Positions 4,057 to 33,648 of a DNA stretch of 34,610 nucleotides are shown piece by piece. Origin of the DNA: Alphaproteobacteria bacterium (GTDB taxonomy: Bacteria > Pseudomonadota > Alphaproteobacteria > Geminicoccales > Geminicoccaceae); assembly GCA_009908425.1 (NCBI GenBank), contig JAAAPF010000337.1:1-34610 (forward strand). The letters run 5' to 3'. How positions within the stretch are numbered: position 1 is the stretch's first letter; every line of letters starts with the position of its first letter. The position numbers and the translations under genes are program-made. The notes under the pieces were generated by a model. It made no database searches. It was not told the origin of the DNA and saw only the letters and a list, made by a program, of their open reading frames with translations.

Positions 4057-4502
4057 TCGAGCGCGGCGCGGGCCTCTTCGATCAGCCCCTCCATGCGGCG
4101 GCCGGCGCGGCCGGGAAAGCGCTGCTCCGCCAGGGCGTCCAGGTTCGGCGCTTCGTCGCCCACCAGGATCAGCCCGACCATCCCGAGGGTGTAGTGCGGC
4201 GTGCACTTGTAGCCGTAGAGCCCCTCTTCGGTCAGCGTGACCTCGATCTCCTCGTTGATCTTGCCGTTGAAGGTCTCACCGCCCGCGGGCACCGCGCCCT
4301 CGATGGTGGCGGCGTTGTGGCCGGGATCGCCGTTCACGAACTTGATCGTGTCACCCGGCTCCACCTGCAGGAACTCCGGCGAATAGACGTAGCGCCCGCC
4401 GTCGGGGCCCTTGTTCAGCATCTCGACCGTGTGGGTCTCGGCGAGGACCGGGCTGGCGGCGAGAAGAGCGGCCGCGGCGGCGAACGCGAGCGAGCGTCGC
4501 AT
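4053..4502 (-). CDS. Pseudoazurin-type periplasmic blue copper protein
   Basis: A 149-residue type-1 copper protein with a Sec signal peptide (about 1-21, ending SPVLA) and a plastocyanin/pseudoazurin fold. All four copper ligands are visible: His62 (DPGHN), and Cys100, His103 and Met108 in YKCTPHYTLGM. Pseudoazurins carry electrons in the periplasm, typically to nitrite or nitrous-oxide reductases, but none of those enzymes is in this window, so its partner is unknown. The ATG at 4502 follows an AAGAGGTG ribosome site; a longer start 12 codons upstream would put charged residues before the signal peptide and is less likely. An imperfect inverted repeat ACACT-CA-AGTGT lies upstream at about 4554-4565. 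Confidence 0.93.
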   Translation of the reverse strand: MRRSLAFAAAAALLAASPVLAETHTVEMLNKGPDGGRYVYSPEFLQVEPGDTIKFVNGDPGHNAATIEGAVPAGGETFNGKINEEIEVTLTEEGLYGYKCTPHYTLGMVGLILVGDEAPNLDALAEQRFPGRAGRRMEGLIEEARAALD

Positions 4503-13415: not shown

Positions 13416-14660
13416 TCAGGACGCGGCGGCGAGAACCTCGGCGTCGACCGGGTTGCGGTCGTCGAGGCGGAGTTCGTGCCAGACGTCGACGAGCGCGCGG
13501 GCGAGGTGCTCGACCAGCCCGTCCTCGTGCAGCGGCGTCGGCGTGATGCGCAACCGCTCGGTGCCCTTCGGCACCGTCGGGTAGTTGATCGGCTGGATGT
13601 AGATGCCGTGCTTTTCCAACAGCAGGTCGGTGGCCTGCTTGCAGCGCACGGGGTCGCCGACCCACACCGGCACGATGTGCGAGGGGCTGTCCATCACCGG
13701 CAGCCCGACCGCGCGCAGCCGGCGCTTGACGGCCGCGGCCCGCTCCTGGTGGCGCCTGCGCTCGGCGGTCGAGGTCTTGAGATGGCGCACGCTGGCGGTG
13801 GCGGCACCGACCACGGCCGGGGCCAGCGAGGTGGTGAAGATGAAGCCGGGGGCGGCCGAGCGCACGGCGTCGACCACCGCGGCCGAGGCCGCGATGTAGC
13901 CGCCCATGCAGCCATAGGCCTTGGCGAGCGTGCCCTGCAGGATGGTGATCCGATCCATCAGCCCCAGCGCCTCGGCGACGCCGCCGCCGCGCGGGCCGTA
14001 CATGCCGACCGCGTGGACCTCGTCGAGATAGGTCATCGCGTTGTACTTGTCGGCGAGGTCGCAGATCGCCTCGATCTCGCCGAAATCGCCATCCATCGAG
14101 TAGACGCTCTCGAACGCGATCAGCTTGGCGCGATCGTGCGGCAGGCTCGCCAGCAACTCCTCGAGGTGGGCGAGGTCGTTGTGGCGAAAGATCATCTTGG
14201 GGCAGCGGCTGCCGCGCACGCCGGCGATCATCGAGGCGTGGTTCATCTCGTCGGAAAGGATGACGCAGTCGGGCAGCAGCTGCGCCACCGTCGAGATCGT
14301 CGCCTCGTTCGAGACGTAGCCCGAGGTGAAGACCAGCGCCGACTCCTTACCGTGCAGATCGGCGAGTTCCTGCTCCAGCAGGACGTGAAGATGGGTCGTC
14401 CCGGAGATGTTGCGGGTGCCGCCGGCCCCGGTGCCGAGGCGCTCGACGGCGGCGCAGGCGGCGCCGCGGGTGGCCTGGTGTTGGCCCATCCCGAGATAGT
14501 CGTTGGAGCACCACACCACCACCTCGCCCGGCCCCACCGGCCCGTGATTGTAGGCGTAGGGGAAGCGTCCGGCCTGGCGCTCGAGATCGGCGAAGACGCG
14601 GTAACGCCCCTCGTGGCGAACCTTGGCCACCGCCTCCTCGAAAATGCCCTCGTAACGCAT
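13416..14660 (-). CDS. hemA: 5-aminolevulinate synthase
   Basis: A 414-residue PLP enzyme that condenses glycine and succinyl-CoA to 5-aminolevulinate, the first step of haem and bacteriochlorophyll synthesis in alphaproteobacteria (Shemin pathway). Clear signatures are [10 protein letters not shown] (50-59), [17 protein letters not shown] (76-92), the cofactor Asp in YLDEVHAVG (about 211-219) and the Schiff-base Lys about 247 in [13 protein letters not shown]. Length and motifs match the family. The ATG at 14660 has GGGAGAG about 6 bp upstream. The upstream region carries a TGT-N12-ACA site and a spaced TGACA pair (separate entries), suggesting control with the photosynthesis genes. Confidence 0.97.
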
Positions 14661-14773
14661 GACGGTCTCTCCCTCGCCCCGCGACCGCGGCCGTGTCGGC
14701 TCCACCATTCGATCGCTCCGCGCCCGACACGACGGCAGGTTCCAGTGCCCCTACCCTTAGTGGCGCAACCAAG

Positions 14774-14791
14774 TGTCAGGCAACCTAGACA
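14774..14791. promoter_or_regulatory. PpsR/CrtJ-like operator upstream of hemA
   Basis: TGTCAGGCAACCTAGACA matches TGT-N12-ACA, the consensus of the aerobic photosynthesis repressor PpsR/CrtJ, with extended half-sites TGTCA and AGACA. It lies about 113 bp before the hemA ATG. Confidence 0.55.
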
Positions 14792-14818: not shown

Positions 14819-14836
14819 TGACATGATGGCATGACA
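14819..14836. promoter_or_regulatory. Paired TGACA direct repeat upstream of hemA
   Basis: TGACATGATGGCATGACA carries two TGACA half-sites 13 bp apart in the same orientation. The same element with the same spacing (TGACATG-N6-TGACA) occurs in front of pucB at 23586-23603. Confidence 0.4.
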
Positions 14837-15296: not shown

Positions 15297-16049
15297 ATGG
15301 AGATCGGAGCGGCGCCGACCGTCGAGCCGCGTTACCGAGCCGTCGCGTTGGCGGCGCAATGCGCCGTGCTGCTCGAGCGCGGATGGCTGGCCGAACAGCC
15401 GCGTCGGCTGCAGGAGGAGGTGCTCGCGCGCGGTCGGATCCGGCGTTACGGGCGCGGCGACGTGGTCTTTCGGCGCGGCGATCCGGCCGGTGGGCTCTAC
15501 GGCGTCGTCGACGGCTCGGTCCTCCACCGCTTTCCGACCGCGGACCACGACAGTTACGTCGCCGACGGCGGCAGCGCGGGATCCTGGTTCGGCGAGCCCT
15601 CGTTGTCGGGGCGCCGACCCCGAACGGTGACCGTGGTGTCCAAAGCCACCACGGTGCTGCTGCACCTGTCGCTCGGCAGTTTCGACGACCTGGTCGCCCG
15701 CGAGCCGGCACACTGGCGCAGCTTCGCCGCCTTGGCGTGCCGCCATCACGAGCACTTGCTGCGGTTGCTCGCCGAGCGGCGGCCGGCGCCGCCGCGGCGG
15801 CGGCTGGCGGCACGCCTGTTGGGCCTGTTGGACGAGCCCGTGTCTGCCCGCGCCGGCGGCGGGCGCAAACTGACGCTGACCCAGTCGGAACTGGCCGACA
15901 TGACCGGCGTGTCGCGGCACACGGTCAACCGCGTGCTGTCCGAGTTCGCCGCCGAAGGCGTGCTCGCCGCCGCCTACGGTCGCATCGTCGTGCACGAGTT
16001 GGACGCCCTCGCCGCGATCGCGCGCGAAGCCGACGCCGAAGCGTCGTGA
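15297..16049 (+). CDS. Crp/Fnr-family transcriptional regulator (paralog 1)
   Basis: A 250-residue regulator with an N-terminal cyclic-nucleotide-type beta-roll (about 35-130: RRYGRGDVVFRRGDPAGGLYGVVDGSV), a dimerisation helix and a C-terminal HTH_Crp domain (LTLTQSELADMTGVSRHTVNRVLSEFAAEGVL, about 187-218). There is no N-terminal cysteine cluster, so it is not an oxygen-sensing FNR; the effector is unknown. The start CAVLLERGWLAEQP is nearly identical to that of the regulator at 32761, and the QP-containing motif recurs in the one at 20660. The ATG follows GGGAG. It is convergent with the octaheme cytochrome gene, 36 bp apart. Confidence 0.93.
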   Translation: MEIGAAPTVEPRYRAVALAAQCAVLLERGWLAEQPRRLQEEVLARGRIRRYGRGDVVFRRGDPAGGLYGVVDGSVLHRFPTADHDSYVADGGSAGSWFGEPSLSGRRPRTVTVVSKATTVLLHLSLGSFDDLVAREPAHWRSFAALACRHHEHLLRLLAERRPAPPRRRLAARLLGLLDEPVSARAGGGRKLTLTQSELADMTGVSRHTVNRVLSEFAAEGVLAAAYGRIVVHELDALAAIAREADAEAS

Positions 16050-18973: not shown

Positions 18974-20571
18974 CGCGCTCCCGCGGCGCCTTCCTCGAGC
19001 TTCTGCATCACATCGTCGAGGTTGAAGCTCGCCGCCTCCTGCCGCGGCGGGTACTCCTCGAACGTCGCCAGGAAGCTCGCCACGTACTGCTGCGCCGGGA
19101 CGAGCATGAAGGCGTGATCGAGCAGCCAGTCGTAGTAGGTGTTCGACGTCCGGTAGGAGCGCTCGTAAGGGTCGCGCCGGAGGTTGAACATCAGCGGCAG
19201 GCGAAGCTCGGTGAACGGCTCGGCCCAGGCCCGCAGCGTTCCCCACTCCTCCTGCTCCAGGAACATGAGCTTCCAGTCGTTGTAACGCAGCGCGGCCAGA
19301 TCGCCGTCGTCGGTGAAGTAGAAGATCTCGTCGCGCGGGCTCTCCTCGCTCTCGCCGGTCAGCAGCGGCAGGATGTCGTAGCCGTCGAGGTGCACGCGGT
19401 AGTCGCGGCCCGCCATCGCGTCGACGGTGACGCCGTCGAGCAGGTCCTCCTTCACGGTCGCGTTGCCCGCGGCGGCGAGAAAGGTCGGAAACCAGTCCAT
19501 GTGATGGACGATCTCGTTGGTGACCTCGCCCTCGGGGATGCGCCCCGGCCAGCGGACCGCCGCCGGGACACGCCAGCCACCCTCCCAATTCGTGTTCTTC
19601 TCGCTCCAGAACGGTGTCATGCCCGCGTCGGGCCACGTGTTCATGTGCGGGCCGTTGTCGGTCGAGTAGAAGACGAGCGTCTCCTCGGCGATGCCCAGCT
19701 CGTCGAGCAGGTCGAGGAACTTGCCCACGTCCATGTCGTGCTCGATCATGCCGGCGGTGTACTCGTTGACGGTGCGGCCGGCGATCTCGTCGGCGCGCTC
19801 CTGCATCTCCGGCGTGACGTGCGTACGAAAGTGCATGCGCGTGCCGTTCCACCAGACGAACCACGGGTTGCCGGCCTCCTCCTGCTCGCGGATGAAGGCG
19901 ATCGCCGCGTCCGAGGTCTCGTCGTCGACGACCTCCATGCGCTCGCGGGTCAGCGCGCCGGTGTCCTCGATCTCCTGCGTGATCGCGTCCGCGCCGTAGC
20001 TGGCCGAGGAGCGGATGACGCCGCGCGGGCCGAAGCGCTCGAGGAAGGTCTCGCCGTCCGGCAGCACCATGTCGCGTGGATAGTCCGGATGCTCCGGCTC
20101 CTCCTCCGCGTTGAGGTGGTAGAGGTTGCCGAAGAACTCGTCGAAGCCGTGGTTCGTCGGCAGGTGCTCGTCGCGATCGCCCAGGTGGTTCTTGCCGAAC
20201 TGCCCGGTGGCGTAGCCCTCCGCCTTCAACAGCGCCGCGATGGTGGGGTCCTCATCCCGCATGCCGAGTTCGGCGCCGGGCAGGCCGACCTTGGAGAGAC
20301 CGGTGCGCCGCACGCTCTGGCCGGTGATGAAGGACGACCGGCCGGCCGTGCAGGACTGCTCGCCGTAGTAGTCGGTGAACATCATGCCCTCGGCGGCGAT
20401 GCGGTCGATGTTCGGCGTCTCGTAGCCCATCAGGCCGAAGGTGTAGGCCGAGATGTTCGACTGGCCGATATCGTCGCCCCAGATGACGAGGATGTTCGGG
20501 CGGTCTTGTGCGGCGGCGGCACCCGCCGCCACCGATAGGGCGCCCGCGAGCGCCAGAAGTTGCAGGCGCAT
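18970..20571 (-). CDS. Exported arylsulfatase-family sulfatase (type I)
   Basis: A 533-residue sulfatase with a signal peptide (about 1-21, AAAAQ). The calcium-binding start NILVIWGDDIG (26-36) and the formylglycine site CTAGRSSFITGQ (Cys74) are visible; the latter is the C-x-A-x-R variant of the more usual C-x-P-x-R. Further signatures are GKNHLG (about 130) and FYSTDNGPHMNTWPD. It hydrolyses sulfate esters in the periplasm and needs a formylglycine-generating enzyme encoded elsewhere. The ATG at 20571 is chosen because it begins the signal peptide. It is first in the operon with the HAD phosphatase and the octaheme cytochrome and is divergent from a Crp/Fnr gene 88 bp away. Confidence 0.94.
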   Translation of the reverse strand: MRLQLLALAGALSVAAGAAAAQDRPNILVIWGDDIGQSNISAYTFGLMGYETPNIDRIAAEGMMFTDYYGEQSCTAGRSSFITGQSVRRTGLSKVGLPGAELGMRDEDPTIAALLKAEGYATGQFGKNHLGDRDEHLPTNHGFDEFFGNLYHLNAEEEPEHPDYPRDMVLPDGETFLERFGPRGVIRSSASYGADAITQEIEDTGALTRERMEVVDDETSDAAIAFIREQEEAGNPWFVWWNGTRMHFRTHVTPEMQERADEIAGRTVNEYTAGMIEHDMDVGKFLDLLDELGIAEETLVFYSTDNGPHMNTWPDAGMTPFWSEKNTNWEGGWRVPAAVRWPGRIPEGEVTNEIVHHMDWFPTFLAAAGNATVKEDLLDGVTVDAMAGRDYRVHLDGYDILPLLTGESEESPRDEIFYFTDDGDLAALRYNDWKLMFLEQEEWGTLRAWAEPFTELRLPLMFNLRRDPYERSYRTSNTYYDWLLDHAFMLVPAQQYVASFLATFEEYPPRQEAASFNLDDVMQKLEEGAAGAR

Positions 20572-20580
20572 GGTTCGTGT

Positions 20581-20589
20581 CCCCCCCCC
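20581..20589. repeat. Homopolymeric C9/G9 tract at the sulfatase ribosome site
   Basis: Nine consecutive C on the plus strand (G9 on the sulfatase strand) end 9 bases before the sulfatase ATG, where a Shine-Dalgarno sequence would lie. Slippage here could change ribosome-site spacing. Confidence 0.6.
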
Positions 20590-20659
20590 ATGTTGCTCCC
20601 CAGCACCGACCTCTATGCCCTGGAGCGCCGGCGAAGATTGGGTCATTGTGGCCAATGCG

Positions 20660-21331
20660 ATGGAACGGCCACTCGATCTCGCCCCGCTCGACCGGCTGGG
20701 GTGGCTCGCCGAGCAGCCGGCCGGTCTGCGCGACTGGGTGGCGGGCGTCGGCCGGTGGCGCTCGCTCGCGTCCGGACAGGTCCTCTACGAAGCCGGCGAG
20801 ACCGGGACGGGGCTCTACGGCCTCGCGACCGGCAGGCTCGACATCACCTTTCCGTCGATCGTCGACGAGCCGGTCGCCGTTCATCGCGCCGAGCCGGGCT
20901 TTTGGATCGGCGATCTGGCGCTGCTCGCCGAAACCGAACGTTTGGTCTCGGTCCACGCGGGTTCCGACGCGCGCCTATTGGCGGTGCCCGGCGCCGCGAT
21001 CCGCGCCCATCTGGACCGCCATCCCGAGCACTGGCGCTGCTTCTACGCGCTGACCCACCGCAACATGGCGGTGGCCCTCGGCCTGTTGGGCGAGGCCCTC
21101 GCCTTGCCCCCCGCCGCTCGCGTCGCCCGGCGGCTGCTGCAGCTGGCGGACGACGCGGGCGTCGTCGTCGGAACGCAGGAGCAACTCGCCGGTCTCGTCG
21201 GCGTCACCCGCACGACCGTGAAACGGGCGCTCAAGCAGCTCGTCGCCGAGGGCGCGATCGAGACCGGCTACCGCAGCCTCAAGATCACGCGCCGCGAGGT
21301 CGTCGCGGCACGCGGGGAGAGCGCCGCCTGA
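20660..21331 (+). CDS. Crp/Fnr-family transcriptional regulator (paralog 2), divergent from sulfatase operon
   Basis: A 223-residue regulator with a beta-roll sensor domain (about 25-115: LASGQVLYEAGETGTGLYGLATGRL) and a C-terminal winged helix (GTQEQLAGLVGVTRTTVKRALKQLVAEGAI, about 170-200). It lacks an FNR-type cysteine cluster. It has the GWLAEQP motif near its N-terminus that is shared with the other two Crp/Fnr proteins here. The start is uncertain: the ATG at 20660 gives the family length, but the upstream ribosome site is weak, and an in-frame GTG at 20648 is possible. It faces away from the sulfatase gene with a short shared promoter region, so it probably controls that operon. Confidence 0.9.
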   Translation: MERPLDLAPLDRLGWLAEQPAGLRDWVAGVGRWRSLASGQVLYEAGETGTGLYGLATGRLDITFPSIVDEPVAVHRAEPGFWIGDLALLAETERLVSVHAGSDARLLAVPGAAIRAHLDRHPEHWRCFYALTHRNMAVALGLLGEALALPPAARVARRLLQLADDAGVVVGTQEQLAGLVGVTRTTVKRALKQLVAEGAIETGYRSLKITRREVVAARGESAA

Positions 21332-21630: not shown

Positions 21631-22503
21631 ATGGACGAAGCGGCGGGGCCCGTGGTCCGGGCGTTCTACAGTGCGGCCACCGGCAGTTGGCAGTACGTCG
21701 TCCACGACCCGGCGACGAAGCAGGCGGCGACCATCGACGTCGTCTGGAACTACGACCCGGTCCACGGCCGCACCAGCACCGAGAGCGCCGACGAGGTCCT
21801 GGCCTATGTCGAGGCGGAGGGCCTGGACGTGGTCTGGCTGCTAGACACCCATCCCCACGCCGACCACTTCATCGCCGCGCCCTATCTGCAGTCCAAGCTG
21901 GGCGCGCCGCGTGGCATCGGGGCGATGGTCACCGGCGTGCAGGAGCTCTGGCGCGCGATCTACGACCTCGGCGACGATTTTCCGATCGACGGGTCGCAGT
22001 GGGACCGGCTGTTCGCCGACGGCGACGGCTTCGCGCTCGGCGAGCTGACCGGCCGCGTCCTGTTCACCCCCGGCCACACCCTGGCCTCGATCTCCTACGT
22101 CATCGGCGACGCCGCCTTCGTCGCCGACACTCTGATGATGCCCGACAGCGGCACCAGCCGCGCCGACTTCCCCGGCGGCGACGCCGGCCGGCTCTACGAC
22201 AGCATCCAGCGCCTGTTGCGGCTGCCCGACGACACCCGCGTCTTCGTCGGCCACGACTACGCCCCCAACGGCCGCGAGCCGCGGTGCGAGAGCACCGTCA
22301 AGGTCCAGCGCGAGAGCAACCTCCACCTTGAGGGCGGCGTCTCGAAGGCCGATTACGTCCGCCTGCGCACCGCCCGCGACGCCACCCTCACCCTGCCCGA
22401 ACGCATGCTCGCGGCGCTGCAGGTGAACATCCGCGGCGGCCGCAAGCCGCCACCGCACCGCAACGGCACCTCCTATCTCCGGATCCCGCTCGACCGCTTT
22501 TGA
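21631..22503 (+). CDS. MBL-fold persulfide dioxygenase-like (ETHE1/Blh family)
   Basis: A 290-residue metallo-beta-lactamase-fold protein. The iron site is visible: THPHADHF (about 72-79), PGHT, ADTLMMPDSG with its Asp ligand, and VGHDYAPNGR. The GTSRADFPGGD loop and the C-terminal LAALQVNIRGG-x-x-PPP...YLRIPLDRF are typical of the Blh branch of persulfide dioxygenases, which oxidise glutathione persulfide to sulfite in sulfide detoxification. The ATG has an ideal GGGAGG site. It has no sulfide:quinone reductase or ArsR (BigR) partner here. In a purple bacterium it would fit sulfide tolerance. It is 234 bp before the repeat-protein gene on the same strand. Confidence 0.93.
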   Translation: MDEAAGPVVRAFYSAATGSWQYVVHDPATKQAATIDVVWNYDPVHGRTSTESADEVLAYVEAEGLDVVWLLDTHPHADHFIAAPYLQSKLGAPRGIGAMVTGVQELWRAIYDLGDDFPIDGSQWDRLFADGDGFALGELTGRVLFTPGHTLASISYVIGDAAFVADTLMMPDSGTSRADFPGGDAGRLYDSIQRLLRLPDDTRVFVGHDYAPNGREPRCESTVKVQRESNLHLEGGVSKADYVRLRTARDATLTLPERMLAALQVNIRGGRKPPPHRNGTSYLRIPLDRF

Positions 22504-22541
22504 GCACGGCCGCCGGCAGCGGTTGCGAGGGCCGCCGCGAG

Positions 22542-22559
22542 TGTCAGGCGCGGTGGACA
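22542..22559. promoter_or_regulatory. PpsR/CrtJ-like operator 1 before the repeat-protein gene
   Basis: TGTCAGGCGCGGTGGACA matches TGT-N12-ACA. It lies 178 bp before the repeat-protein ATG and 44 bp (centre to centre) from a second site, about four helical turns. Confidence 0.6.
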
Positions 22560-22585
22560 TTTTTCGAGGTCGCCGACGGTGACCA

Positions 22586-22603
22586 TGTCAAGTACAATGT
22601 ACA
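22586..22603. promoter_or_regulatory. PpsR/CrtJ-like operator 2 before the repeat-protein gene
   Basis: TGTCAAGTACAATGTACA matches TGT-N12-ACA exactly, in a small AT-richer patch. TACAAT (22593-22598) inside it could serve as a -10 element, although no good -35 is visible. Paired sites of this kind allow cooperative PpsR/CrtJ repression in Rhodobacter. Confidence 0.65.
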
Positions 22604-22737
22604 GACGATGGTCGGGTTGGACAGCTCGCCCTTTCCCGGGGCGACGGCTCCGACTATCGTAGAGGTGCGACCGTGAGGCGCGTTTGTACGGCGCCGCCAC
22701 GGCGTCCTCTCGGCGCGGACACTGCAGGAGAGCCATC

Positions 22738-23460
22738 ATGGCGAATTCGGTGGTACGGATTTTCGACACGGAGGAGAAGGCGCGCGACGCCGTCGGCAAG
22801 CTCGTCGAGGACGGCTATCCCGAGGACTCGGTCTACCTGGTGACGCCGAGCGTCGGCGGCGAGGAAGGCGGCGCGCCGGGCGCGGACGCCTTCGCGAGCG
22901 CGGTCAAGGCCGGCCAGCTCATGGGCGACTTTGCGGACGTCTACGCCGACCGCGTCCGCCGCGGCCGCTCGCTGGTGGTGGTGCCGGCCGCCTTCGGCTA
23001 CGCCCGCCGCGCCGCGGAGCTCATGGAAGAGTGCGGGCCGGTCGACACCGACATCGAACTGCCGCAGGACCCCTACGACTGGAACGTCGGCACGCCCTTC
23101 TCGTCGGCGGTGTGCCTGCCGGTGCTGCAGCGCAACCGGCCCGCCCCGGTGTCGGGGCTGATCGGCGTCACCCCGCTGGTGCGCGGCACCACCACCTTCG
23201 GCACGCTGGCGAGCTCGAAGTTCTTCCCGTCGTCGTTCTTCGCCCTCACGATCAAGCGGGCGGCGCCGCTGTCGCAGACCTTCGGGCTCAAGCTGCTGAC
23301 CACCGCGAAGCGCAGCTGGCGCTCGAGCTTCGGTCTGCCGCTGCTGTCCGGCAAGGCGTCACCGCTGTCGTCCAGCGTCGGCTTGTCGACCCTCGCGCGC
23401 AACCCGGCCCCGCTGTCGTCGCTCCTGCGCTTTCCGACGCTGGTGCCCGAAGCCCGCTGA
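22738..23460 (+). CDS. Repeat-containing protein, putative LH2-associated accessory factor (unknown function)
   Basis: A 240-residue protein with two parts. Residues 1-95 form an alpha/beta domain (VVRIFDTEEKARDAVGKLVEDGYPEDSVYLV) resembling the YflT/general-stress 17M fold. Residues 119-240 are about seven copies of a 14-18 residue motif with consensus x-A-P-L-S-S-x-F-G-L-x-x-L (for example APLSQTFGLKLL, SSFGLPLLS, SPLSSSVGLSTL, APLSSLLRFPTL), each ending with a few basic residues. No signal peptide or long membrane helix is seen. The repeats look amphipathic and membrane- or pigment-protein-binding. The ATG follows AGGAG. Two PpsR-like sites lie upstream, two terminators follow, and then the LH2 operon. 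Function is inferred only from context. Confidence 0.85.
   Translation: MANSVVRIFDTEEKARDAVGKLVEDGYPEDSVYLVTPSVGGEEGGAPGADAFASAVKAGQLMGDFADVYADRVRRGRSLVVVPAAFGYARRAAELMEECGPVDTDIELPQDPYDWNVGTPFSSAVCLPVLQRNRPAPVSGLIGVTPLVRGTTTFGTLASSKFFPSSFFALTIKRAAPLSQTFGLKLLTTAKRSWRSSFGLPLLSGKASPLSSSVGLSTLARNPAPLSSLLRFPTLVPEAR
23092..23457 (+). repeat. Protein-level repeat array of the PLSSxFGL motif
   Basis: The last 122 codons of the repeat protein. Approximate units start at residues 119, 135, 161, 175, 193, 207 and 223. The DNA copies have diverged, so the array is old and kept by selection on the protein rather than a recent duplication. Confidence 0.75.
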
Positions 23461-23468
23461 CCAACCGC

Positions 23469-23498
23469 CCGAAGCACGCCACTTTCGGCGTGCTTCGG
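23469..23498 (+). terminator. Strong hairpin after the repeat-protein gene
   Basis: CCGAAGCACGCC and GGCGTGCTTCGG form a perfect 12-bp stem with the loop ACTTTC, starting 8 bp after the stop. No T-run follows; a second, T-tailed terminator lies 33 bp further on. Confidence 0.65.
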
Positions 23499-23530
23499 CC
23501 GCCGCGGCCGCCCTCGCGACGTCCCCTCGG

Positions 23531-23552
23531 CCCGCAGCACGCGGGTTTTTTT
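23531..23552 (+). terminator. Rho-independent terminator
   Basis: CCCGC-AGCAC-GCGGG followed by seven T, the clearest intrinsic terminator in the window. With the hairpin before it, it separates the repeat-protein transcript from the LH2 operon. Confidence 0.8.
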
Positions 23553-23585
23553 GACGGCCGGCGGCGCCGCGACGTCAACGAAGGT

Positions 23586-23616
23586 TGACATGGCGAGGTG
23601 ACAACCTGCCTTGACA
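23586..23616. promoter_or_regulatory. Triple TGACA operator of the LH2 operon
   Basis: TGACA occurs at 23586, 23599 and 23612, exactly 13 bp apart and in the same orientation (TGTCA-N8-TGTCA-N8-TGTCA on the other strand). TGTCA is the half-site of the PpsR/CrtJ motif, and the N8 spacing equals that of TGTCA-N8-TGACA, but here the halves are direct rather than inverted. The third copy is inside the -35 box, so a bound protein would block the polymerase. Confidence 0.55.
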
Positions 23617-23842: not shown

Positions 23843-24007
23843 ATGGCCAATGATTTGGACGATCCGGACCGGGTGTGGCCAACCGGCCTGACCATCCGAG
23901 AGTCGGAAGAACTCCATAAGCACGTCATCGACGGTGCTCGGGTGTTTTTCTTCATCGCGGTGATCGCGCACATTCTCGCCGCCGCGTTTAGCCCCTGGCT
24001 GGGATGA
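23843..24007 (+). CDS. pucB: LH2 light-harvesting beta subunit
   Basis: A 54-residue single-helix antenna protein. The core [15 protein letters not shown] (21-35) and the B850-ligand His43 (IAHIL), 18 residues after His25, match the beta polypeptide of Rhodopseudomonas acidophila LH2. The end is SPWLG where known LH2 beta chains often end PWLH. The N-terminus is about 13 residues longer than the R. acidophila beta chain. It pairs with the alpha subunit, binds bacteriochlorophyll and carotenoid, and forms the peripheral antenna ring in the intracytoplasmic membrane. GGGAG lies 8 bp before the ATG. pucA follows after 10 bp. Confidence 0.96.
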
Positions 24008-24017
24008 GGAGGTAAGG

Positions 24018-24161
24018 ATGAATCAAGGTAGGATTTGGTGCGTCGTTAATCCGACCGTCGGGTTGCCGCTGTTTTTGGGTGCGGTGGCGCTGATTTCGTT
24101 CGTGGTGCACTTCGCCGTCCTGAACAACACGCCGTGGATCGGCACCTTCTGGGGCGGATGA
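24018..24161 (+). CDS. pucA: LH2 light-harvesting alpha subunit
   Basis: A 47-residue antenna protein. MNQGRIW at the start (Met1 is the B800 ligand in R. acidophila LH2), [11 protein letters not shown], and the B850-ligand His31 (FVVHFAVL) align without gaps to R. acidophila LH2 alpha. The C-terminal [11 protein letters not shown] puts Phe at 44 and Trp at 45; B850-type chains have Tyr44, and B820-type chains have Phe44-Leu45. It is shorter than many alpha chains, lacking the Lys/Ala tail. An excellent AGGAGGT lies 4 bp before the ATG and overlaps the pucB stop, favouring equal synthesis of both chains. Confidence 0.96.
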
Positions 24162-24250: not shown

Positions 24251-25696
24251 ATGGACCGGTTCGGTCGCAAGCTGATGCGGTCGTGGGCCGAATTGGGCCC
24301 GCGCTACCTGCCCTTCGCCGACGTCGCCACGCCGGACCTGCCGCTCACGCGGTTGCTCCGGCTGTCGCTGTTTCAGATCTCGGTCGGCATGGCCCTGGTG
24401 CTGCTGGTCGGTACCCTCAACCGGGTCATGATCGTCGAGCTCGGCGTGCCGGCCTCGCTGGTCGGCCTGATGATCGCCCTGCCCGTCGCCTTCGCACCGT
24501 TCCGCGCGCTCATCGGCTTTCGCTCCGACACCCATCGCTGCGAGCTCGGCTGGCGCCGGGTGCCGTTCATCTGGAAGGGCACGCTTTGGCAGTTCGGCGG
24601 CTTCGCCATCATGCCGTTCGCGCTGCTCGTCCTCGCCGGTAAGGGCGAGGCCAGCGGCGCGCTGATCTGGCTCGGCCAGGCCGGCGCCGCGCTCGCCTTC
24701 TTGATGGTCGGCGCCGGGCTGCACACCGTCCAGACCGCGGGCCTGGCGCTCGCCACCGACCTGACCCCGCCCGAGTCCCACCCCAAGGTGGTGGGGCTGA
24801 TGTACGTCATGCTGCTGCTCGGCATGATGACCAGCGCCCTCCTGTTCGGCGCCGCCCTCACCGACTTCTCGCCGGGCCGCCTGGTGCAGGTGATTCAGGC
24901 CGCCAGTGTGGCGACCGTCGTCTTGAACCTGGTGGCGATGTGGAAACAGGAGACCCGGCGGCCGCCGCGCGGCGCCACCGCCCGCGGCCCCGATCCCTCC
25001 TTCCGCGACAGCTGGCGCCATTTCTGCGCCGGTGAGCAGACCGTGCGCCGGCTGGTCGTCGTCGGCATCGGAACCATGGCCTTCGCCATGTCCGACGTGC
25101 TGCTCGAACCCTTCGGCGGCGAGGTGCTCGACCTCAGCGTCAGCGCCACCACCAAGCTCACCGCGCTCTTCGCCCTCGGCGGCCTGGTGGGCTTCGGCTT
25201 CGCGAGCCACGTCCTCGGCCGCGGCGGCGACGCCTACCGCGTCGCCGCGGGCGGCGCGCTCCTGGGCCTGCCGGCCTTCGCGCTGGTGCTGCTCGCGGCT
25301 CCTTTGGGCGTTCCCGTCCTGTTCCCGCTGGGCAACTTCCTCATCGGCTTCGGCGGCGCGCTCTTCGGCCACGGCACCCTGACCGCGACGATGACCCGCG
25401 CGCCCAAGAACCAGGCCGGCTTGGCGCTCGGCGCCTGGGGCGCGGTGCAGGCGAGCGCGGCGGGCCTCGCCATGGCGCTCAGCGGCGGCATCCGCGACGG
25501 CGTCAACGCCGCACTCGGCGCGACCGAGGCCTTCGGCGGCCTCGGCGCCGTCGCCGGCGGCTACGTCACCGTCTACGCCCTCGAGATCGGGCTCCTGCTG
25601 GTGACCATCGCCGCCGCGGCGCCGCTGCTGCGCCGTGCCGCCGGCGCCGCCGCCGCACCGGCCCTGGCCGGCTGGCGCGGCGGATCCACGCGATGA
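24251..25696 (+). CDS. pucC: PucC-family LH2 assembly membrane protein
   Basis: A 481-residue polytopic protein with about 12 membrane helices of the PucC/LhaA/bacteriochlorophyll-delivery branch of the major facilitator superfamily. Recognisable segments are LRLSLFQISVGMALVLLVGTLNRVMIVELG (24-53 region), FRALIGFRSDTH, GWRRVPFIWKGTLWQFGG, TDLTPPESHPKVVGLMYVML, LEPFGGEVLDLSV and FGHGTLTATM. PucC is needed for stable LH2 assembly, perhaps by passing pigment to the subunits. The ATG at 24251 is 89 bp after pucA, behind a hairpin. A deformylase gene starts 9 bp after its stop. Confidence 0.96.
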   Translation: MDRFGRKLMRSWAELGPRYLPFADVATPDLPLTRLLRLSLFQISVGMALVLLVGTLNRVMIVELGVPASLVGLMIALPVAFAPFRALIGFRSDTHRCELGWRRVPFIWKGTLWQFGGFAIMPFALLVLAGKGEASGALIWLGQAGAALAFLMVGAGLHTVQTAGLALATDLTPPESHPKVVGLMYVMLLLGMMTSALLFGAALTDFSPGRLVQVIQAASVATVVLNLVAMWKQETRRPPRGATARGPDPSFRDSWRHFCAGEQTVRRLVVVGIGTMAFAMSDVLLEPFGGEVLDLSVSATTKLTALFALGGLVGFGFASHVLGRGGDAYRVAAGGALLGLPAFALVLLAAPLGVPVLFPLGNFLIGFGGALFGHGTLTATMTRAPKNQAGLALGAWGAVQASAAGLAMALSGGIRDGVNAALGATEAFGGLGAVAGGYVTVYALEIGLLLVTIAAAAPLLRRAAGAAAAPALAGWRGGSTR

Positions 25697-32572: not shown

Positions 32573-32760
32573 CGCGGCTTCGAGCTCACGGCACCTGCCG
32601 GGCGCCGAGCGTCGGTCTCGCTCCCGGCGGGATCGAGGCGCGGCCGTGAGGCGAGCCATGGGCGGTGGCACCGAACCGATCGAGATTTCGCTCCGTCGAT
32701 GGTGACGCCGCTCGACCCGCTAAGGGCGCGGTCGCCCGATGCGAACGAGGGAGGAGACGC

Positions 32761-33648
32761 ATGCGGAACACACTCGGGGTATGGCGCGGCGGCAACGGTG
32801 GCGCCGGAGCGTGCAACGCCGTCGCCCGCCCGACGGTCGGCGCCGGCGGCGAACCGGCCGGCGGTAACGGCGGCACTCACGCCGGCGCGTTGCCGGCACG
32901 GTGCGCGGTGCTGTTGGAGCGGGGCTGGCTGGCCGGCCAGCCCGCGAGCTTTCAACGCGAGGTGTTGGAGCGCTCGCGCATCCGCCGCTACGGCCGCGGC
33001 GAGACGGTGATCCGCCGCGGCGAGCCGGCCGGCGGGATCTACGGCGTGATCGGAGGCAATGTCGAGTACCGCTTGGCGGGTCACGACGACGAGGAGCACC
33101 CGGCGCTGTTCGGCCTGCCCGGCGCCTGGTTCGGCGGCACCTCGGTGCTGAGCGGCACCCCCCAGGAGATGACGGTGGCCCTCGGTGCGCCGGCGGTGGT
33201 GGCGCAGTTTCCGGCCTCCGCCTTCGAGTTGGTGGTGGGGCGCGATCCGGCGGCGTGGCGGCGGTTCGCCACCCTGGCGGCCCGGGAGTGCGAGCTGTTG
33301 GTGCGCCTGCACGCCGACCTCAAGCCCGCCGGTGGCCAAACCCGCATCGCCTCCCGCCTGTTGGGGCTGCTCGACAACGACCCGTGCGGCTTCGCGCGCC
33401 CCGGCCAGGAGCTCGCGCTGACGCAGTGGGCGCTGGCCGAGATGAGCGCGGTTTCCCGCCACACCGTCAACCGCTTCCTGGTGAAGCTGCGCGGCGAGGG
33501 CGTGCTCTCGGTGGGTTACGGCCGGATCGTGGTGCACGACCTCGACCGCCTGCGCGCCCTCGCCGGCCGCACCGCGCCCGCCACCGGGGACGTGGCCGAG
33601 CCGGTGGCGGCGCGCCGTCGGTCGTCCGCGGCGGCACGGCGCCGGTGA
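32761..33648 (+). CDS. Crp/Fnr-family transcriptional regulator (paralog 3)
   Basis: A 295-residue regulator with a Gly-rich N-terminal extension (1-45), a beta-roll (about 70-170: RRYGRGETVIRRGEPAGGIYGVIGGNV) and an HTH_Crp domain (LALTQWALAEMSAVSRHTVNRFLVKLRGEGVL). CAVLLERGWLAGQP and the HTH are closely related to paralog 1 at 15297, so the two arose by duplication. An Arg/Ser/Ala-rich tail follows. No FNR cysteine cluster. GGGAGGAG precedes the ATG at 32761. Its stop is 7 bp from the stop of the convergent DUF3365 gene. Confidence 0.92.
   Translation: MRNTLGVWRGGNGGAGACNAVARPTVGAGGEPAGGNGGTHAGALPARCAVLLERGWLAGQPASFQREVLERSRIRRYGRGETVIRRGEPAGGIYGVIGGNVEYRLAGHDDEEHPALFGLPGAWFGGTSVLSGTPQEMTVALGAPAVVAQFPASAFELVVGRDPAAWRRFATLAARECELLVRLHADLKPAGGQTRIASRLLGLLDNDPCGFARPGQELALTQWALAEMSAVSRHTVNRFLVKLRGEGVLSVGYGRIVVHDLDRLRALAGRTAPATGDVAEPVAARRRSSAAARRR

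Follow-up and report, generated by a model that had tools for sequence, protein, structure and literature searches.

The question raised by this locus is whether gene X, which codes for a repeat protein next to the LH2 antenna operon, belongs to the photosynthesis regulon governed by PpsR/CrtJ, and what its product might do. The whole stretch of 34,610 nt that was analysed is referred to as the window, and its features are collected in Table 1. The original prediction was based on two TGT-N12-ACA motifs in the 234-bp gap (22504-22737) between a gene for a protein of the metallo-beta-lactamase fold and gene X. Both motifs are present at the positions claimed as exact matches, with centres 44 bp (44.0) apart and a gap of 26 bp between the sites. 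One or two such motifs per window had been estimated; dinucleotide shuffles gave 1.34 and the genome-wide frequency (208 motifs in 3.36 Mb) about 2.1 per window, versus eight found, several of which are intragenic. When the gap itself was shuffled, the probability of at least one motif was 0.022 and that of two or more 0.0002 (0.02% of the shuffles).

Table 1. Features of the window discussed in the text
Feature	Coordinates	Strand	Remarks
hemA, 5-aminolevulinate synthase	13416-14708	minus	
PpsR-type box upstream of hemA, TGTCAGGCAACCTAGACA	14774..14791	.	score 18.3; 65 bp before longest hemA ORF
Second PpsR-type box upstream of hemA, TGACATGATGGCATGACA	14819..14836	.	score 14.5; centres 45 bp from first
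Upstream TGT-N12-ACA site, TGTCAGGCGCGGTGGACA	22542..22559	.	exact match; weak PpsR-type box, GC-rich core, function doubtful
Downstream TGT-N12-ACA site, TGTCAAGTACAATGTACA	22586..22603	.	exact match; strong PpsR/CrtJ-type box
Promoter-like element of X, GACTATCGTAGAGGTGCGAC	22652..22671	+	possible -10 TATCGT; common to relatives at same position; putative function
Gene X, 240-aa repeat protein	22738..23460	+	PII-like N-terminal domain (1-105), basic C-terminal 16-residue repeats
Strong hairpin just 3' of X	23469..23498	+	12-bp stem, possible X transcript end; folding
Terminator-like hairpin then T7	23529..23557	+	between X and puc promoter
PpsR-type box before pucB, CGTCAACGAAGGTTGACA	23573..23590	.	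first of 8-bp-gap pair; score 18.0
PpsR-type box before pucB, TGACAACCTGCCTTGACA	23599..23616	.	second of pair; score 17.5
pucB, LH2 beta subunit	23843..24007	+	PF00556
pucA, LH2 alpha subunit	24018..24161	+	PF00556
pucC, LH2 assembly protein, major facilitator superfamily	24251..25696	+	PF03209, E=6.6e-147

In order to judge the two sites separately, a scoring matrix was built from 12 boxes upstream of puc genes, all from bacterial families other than that of the window. The matrix proved valid on 20 puc loci outside the training set: 18 had a box in the 400 bp preceding pucB, and the density of boxes was 3.75 per kb there versus 0.046 per kb in the remainder of these loci. Wherever such a locus had several boxes, the spacing from one to the next was 13 or 26 bp. 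At L119 (3077-3120), L118 (5483-5526) and contig C129 of G000 (4399-4442), three PpsR-type boxes overlap with a spacing of 13 bp, the TGACA end of each being common to it and the following one. The analysis thereby provides a PpsR box model that can be used for this group of uncultivated phototrophs. In the window the highest score, 18.7, was that of the site at 22586, ahead of the first hemA box, the two pucB boxes and the second hemA box in that order, and it was attained in none of 20,000 shuffles of the gap. In contrast, the site at 22542 scored 9.3, a value attained in 3% of gap shuffles and expected about 1.6 times per window, which is near chance. The 44-bp spacing also differs from the 13/26-bp register of multi-box puc promoters in the 20 independent loci. 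Of the two PpsR/CrtJ operators that had been proposed, the downstream one is a good box, while the upstream one would be at most a weak auxiliary site.

The lack of a PpsR/CrtJ gene had been named as grounds for dropping the prediction. The genome encodes an intact ppsR at C163:7897-9243 (TIGR02040, 500 bits versus a cut-off of 275.4), with a helix-turn-helix at the C-terminus of its translation. A clustering of motifs at photosynthesis genes had also been anticipated. The bare TGT-N12-ACA motif showed no genome-wide enrichment, with 208 matches versus 203 when the pattern was reversed, and by itself it is therefore weak evidence. For this reason we adopted the extended box TGTCAA-N6-TTGACA, a longer consensus taken from pucB-upstream boxes of relatives, and searched for it with up to two mismatches. 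It was found at 22 sites in the genome versus six for the reversed control. Photosynthesis genes hold 13 of the 22: one box each at bchF, aerR-ppsR and hemA, and two each at crtE/crtC, bchC (8-bp gap), crtI, X and pucB. The names bchC and hemA were assigned by family matches, and those of the other bch genes, the crt genes and aerR from translations and gene order. The anticipated clustering is seen with the extended box.

The original prediction overlooked the pair before pucB and the pair upstream of hemA, both of which are better placed than the pair before X. Both pucB boxes and the second of the boxes at hemA escaped attention because they are one base off TGT/ACA; the pucB pair reads CGT-N12-ACA, an 8-bp gap and TGA-N12-ACA. 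Its first box has a single mismatch to the extended consensus and is among the three best in the genome. The last six bases of its second box, TTGACA, resemble the -35 element of puc and form part of a putative promoter, TTGACA-N17-TACGGT, that is conserved in a relative of the same genus (G001), so occlusion of the -35 element is plausible at pucB. About 49 bp separate the end of the strong box before X from the GACTAT element downstream of it, and simple blocking of RNA polymerase is therefore not obvious at X. The segment from 23461 to 23560 has a predicted folding energy of -49.7 kcal/mol (z -3.5), and the two hairpins between X and pucB suggest that transcription does not simply run on from X into puc. 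Three genes for Crp/Fnr-type regulators are found in the window (15297-16049, 20513-21331 and 32665-33648). The gene upstream of X (21631-22503), which comes after one of them, matches the dioxygenase part of Blh, a bifunctional sulfur transferase/dioxygenase (NF040641, 437 bits, with a match confined to profile positions 140-423).

We also examined how closely X is linked to LH2 in other genomes. X lies beside pucBA/pucC and carries a tail of 16-residue repeats, the two features by which the family is defined here. An alignment of four relatives matched 30 named contigs, while X alone as a query matched none. Genome searches yielded 14 genomes, six of them common to both sets, giving 38 genomes after removal of duplicates. 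X and pucBA occupy the same short locus in 35 of the 38, X being mostly between pucA and pucC; the exceptions are two Rhodopila contigs, read for 4 kb on each side, and L117. LH genes were present in 27 of 385 genomes sampled from the class. X was found in 11 of the 12 genomes assigned to LH2 by puc copy number or position, versus none of the 15 genomes that had one LH pair each and were taken as LH1 only (Fisher p 9e-7). One LH2 genome, G158, has pucBA-pucC but lacks X, and X is thus not essential to LH2. Weak matches to X in six genomes (G152, G176, G211, G274, G378 and G384) were not counted as members, these genomes having no LH genes and no adjoining pucBA. The bins assigned to Myxococcota, Longimicrobiales, Gemmatimonadales and Anaerolineae may be mis-binned, and the layout of the Anaerolineae locus (L128) is nearly that of the alphaproteobacterium G177.

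The position of the boxes varies with the arrangement of the genes. Most other genomes have PpsR boxes at the head of a single cluster in which X comes after pucBA, and control through the puc promoter would follow there. X genes detached from such a cluster have boxes of their own in two Rhodopila bins (L123 and L126), in L117 (a Competibacteraceae bin, with a pair at an 8-bp gap) and in G126. Each of the two Rhodopila bins carries three X genes in tandem, of which the first and the second are preceded by PpsR boxes. X is on the strand opposite to pucBA in L063 (G129, convergent) and in L064 (G126, divergent), and in G126 boxes are near both genes in the gap shared by X and pucB. The X protein of G126 has almost lost the repeats, at most one being left. 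Two gammaproteobacterial loci have X-like frames of about 400-550 residues upstream of pucBA (547 and 444 codons in L118, 407 codons in L121), with several X matches along each of the long frames.

Structure prediction gave an alpha/beta domain with good confidence for residues 1-105 of X, while the C-terminal part is predicted to be disordered (pLDDT <50 in two family members). The tail is basic and has a period of 16 residues, in which APLSSxLGLxxL alternates with SSFGLPLLS. The hydropathy profile shows no transmembrane segment, and X is probably soluble. No Pfam or NCBIfam family matched X above its cut-off, and Foldseek alone gave no significant match. The best Pfam match, to YflT (PF11181), had an E-value of 0.0044 and 17.9 bits versus a gathering cut-off of 26.2. 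In local alignments the repeats matched the LH2 alpha subunit with a score of 28.0 versus 22.8 (sd 1.2), above all 200 shuffles, which the reversed alpha sequence did not do; this match is mostly GLPL and the repeats are not independent of one another. The excess for the beta subunit was milder, with 4 of 200 shuffles attaining it. Mimicry of the alpha subunit by the repeats is kept only as a lead. The open literature that we searched holds no description of such a family, and X belongs to a real and apparently undescribed one.

Comparison with the nearest relatives, G001 (same genus), G008 and G010 (both same family), bears on whether the motifs before X are used at all. The order X-pucB-pucA-pucC-def is common to all four genomes, and each has kept the PpsR pair in the interval from X to pucB. 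No PpsR-type box was found before X in the three relatives, G008 being readable for only 138 bp upstream of X. What they share with the window there is the GACTAT element, with GGACTATnnT...GTGCGAC at the same place in the window, G001 and G010 and in part in G008. In the five loci in which X comes first (L112, L118, L121, L124 and L125), the boxes are likewise between X and pucB. These observations would fit motifs before X that are due to chance or are decaying and unused, the pucB pair being the real operator and X answering to other promoter control. We regard this as a minor though real possibility, since the shuffles of the gap yielded no box equal to that at 22586 and since this box scores at least as high as the puc and hemA boxes of the window. 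If the box is used, its absence from the three relatives makes direct control of X by PpsR a feature of the window's own lineage within this group. The strong box might also serve a different regulator, one that reads the perfect 11-bp inner palindrome GTACA-A-TGTAC contained in it, and Crp/Fnr-type genes are close by, among them the one at 20513. Sites of Crp/Fnr regulators differ in form from a box of this type, however, its TGTCAA half sites agree with the PpsR boxes of the genome, and a near-identical box, TGTCAAGTTAAGTTTACA, occurs in the puc promoter of G058 without the inner palindrome. A role for another regulator is thus very improbable.

A further alternative accepts X as a member of the photosynthesis regulon and concerns its function. 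X could be a stress protein resembling YflT/GSP17M, or a regulator, that protects cells during LH2 synthesis and is not an assembly factor. The weak YflT match of the N-terminal domain, which is seen in 8 of 14 members of the family, points in this direction. X tracks LH2, however, and not phototrophy in general, and the repeat tail occurs in proteins linked to LH2. We consider a protective function unlikely.

The original prediction is supported in part, and its wider conclusion gains strength from the LH2 linkage of the X family. The proposal that the repeat protein is in the photosynthesis regulon is favoured by the presence of ppsR, by the clustering of boxes and by the linkage to LH2. It is weakened by there being a single good box, by the 44-bp spacing and by the lack of conservation of the boxes. 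As judged from sequence, membership of X in the regulon rests on several independent lines. We find it reasonably probable that the site at 22586-22603 is a PpsR/CrtJ operator of X and that X is a soluble helper dedicated to the assembly or packing of LH2. We infer that PpsR binds this site under oxidising or high-light conditions and that transcription of X is then lowered, in parallel with that from the hemA, bch, crt and puc promoters bearing the same box. The product would be soluble, would reside in the cytoplasm and would serve the LH2 antenna specifically. The PII-like domain at its N-terminus, of the ferredoxin fold, would probably oligomerise or sense a ligand, and its basic disordered tail would probably bind LH2 polypeptides or PucC multivalently at the membrane. 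Binding by the tail would help LH2 assembly or packing. Since the gene accompanies LH2 genes in many unrelated bacteria, X is probably an overlooked helper of this antenna.

A bolder version can be offered tentatively, and we think it rather unlikely to hold. X would be the first member of a widespread and undescribed family whose proteins scaffold or assemble LH2; the disordered repeat tail would mimic a GLPLL-like segment near the N-terminus of LH2 alpha, would so bind PucC or the ring neighbours of alpha and would set the number or packing of LH2. The family would have spread with puc operons in Alphaproteobacteria and Gammaproteobacteria, and also in Myxococcota and Gemmatimonadota provided that these bins are correct. 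The operator itself is ordinary; what the locus offers is a conserved gene that tracks LH2 across lineages and is absent from apparent LH1-only phototrophs.

The candidate operator before X would be a further example of a well known kind of site. Its half sites are the same as those of the PpsR/CrtJ operators of Rhodobacter and Rubrivivax, which are pairs of TGT-N12-ACA. The pair before X differs from these pairs in its 26-bp gap, in having one strong and one weak member and in not being conserved. Published gaps between PpsR sites vary, being 9 or 240 bp at pucB and 8 or 76 bp at crtI (PMC4452267). In gel shift experiments PpsR bound the crtI promoter of Rubrivivax gelatinosus, (TGa-N12-ACA)-N8-(cGT-N12-ACA) (PMC4452267), and the pucB pair of the window matches it both in its one-base departures and in its 8-bp gap. 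With regard to the protein, residues 1-105 of X superpose on many GlnK/PII chains with Z up to 8.7, although at 7-15% identity, with no family match and with no sign of the PII ligand site; middling Z values of this kind are typical of a common fold. The likeness to YflT/general stress protein 17M is weak and covers residues 5-36, X being below the gathering score and its repeat tail outside the YflT model. The assembly and arrangement of LH2 rings with PucC are poorly understood. In Rba. sphaeroides almost no LH2 is left when pucC is deleted, and the authors of that work state that the way in which PucC acts is not known to them (PMC4949548). PucC is encoded in the same cluster as X and is unrelated to it in sequence, X being soluble by hydropathy and without a transmembrane helix; a soluble partner whose gene lies between pucA and pucC would provide a direct genetic handle on LH2 assembly.
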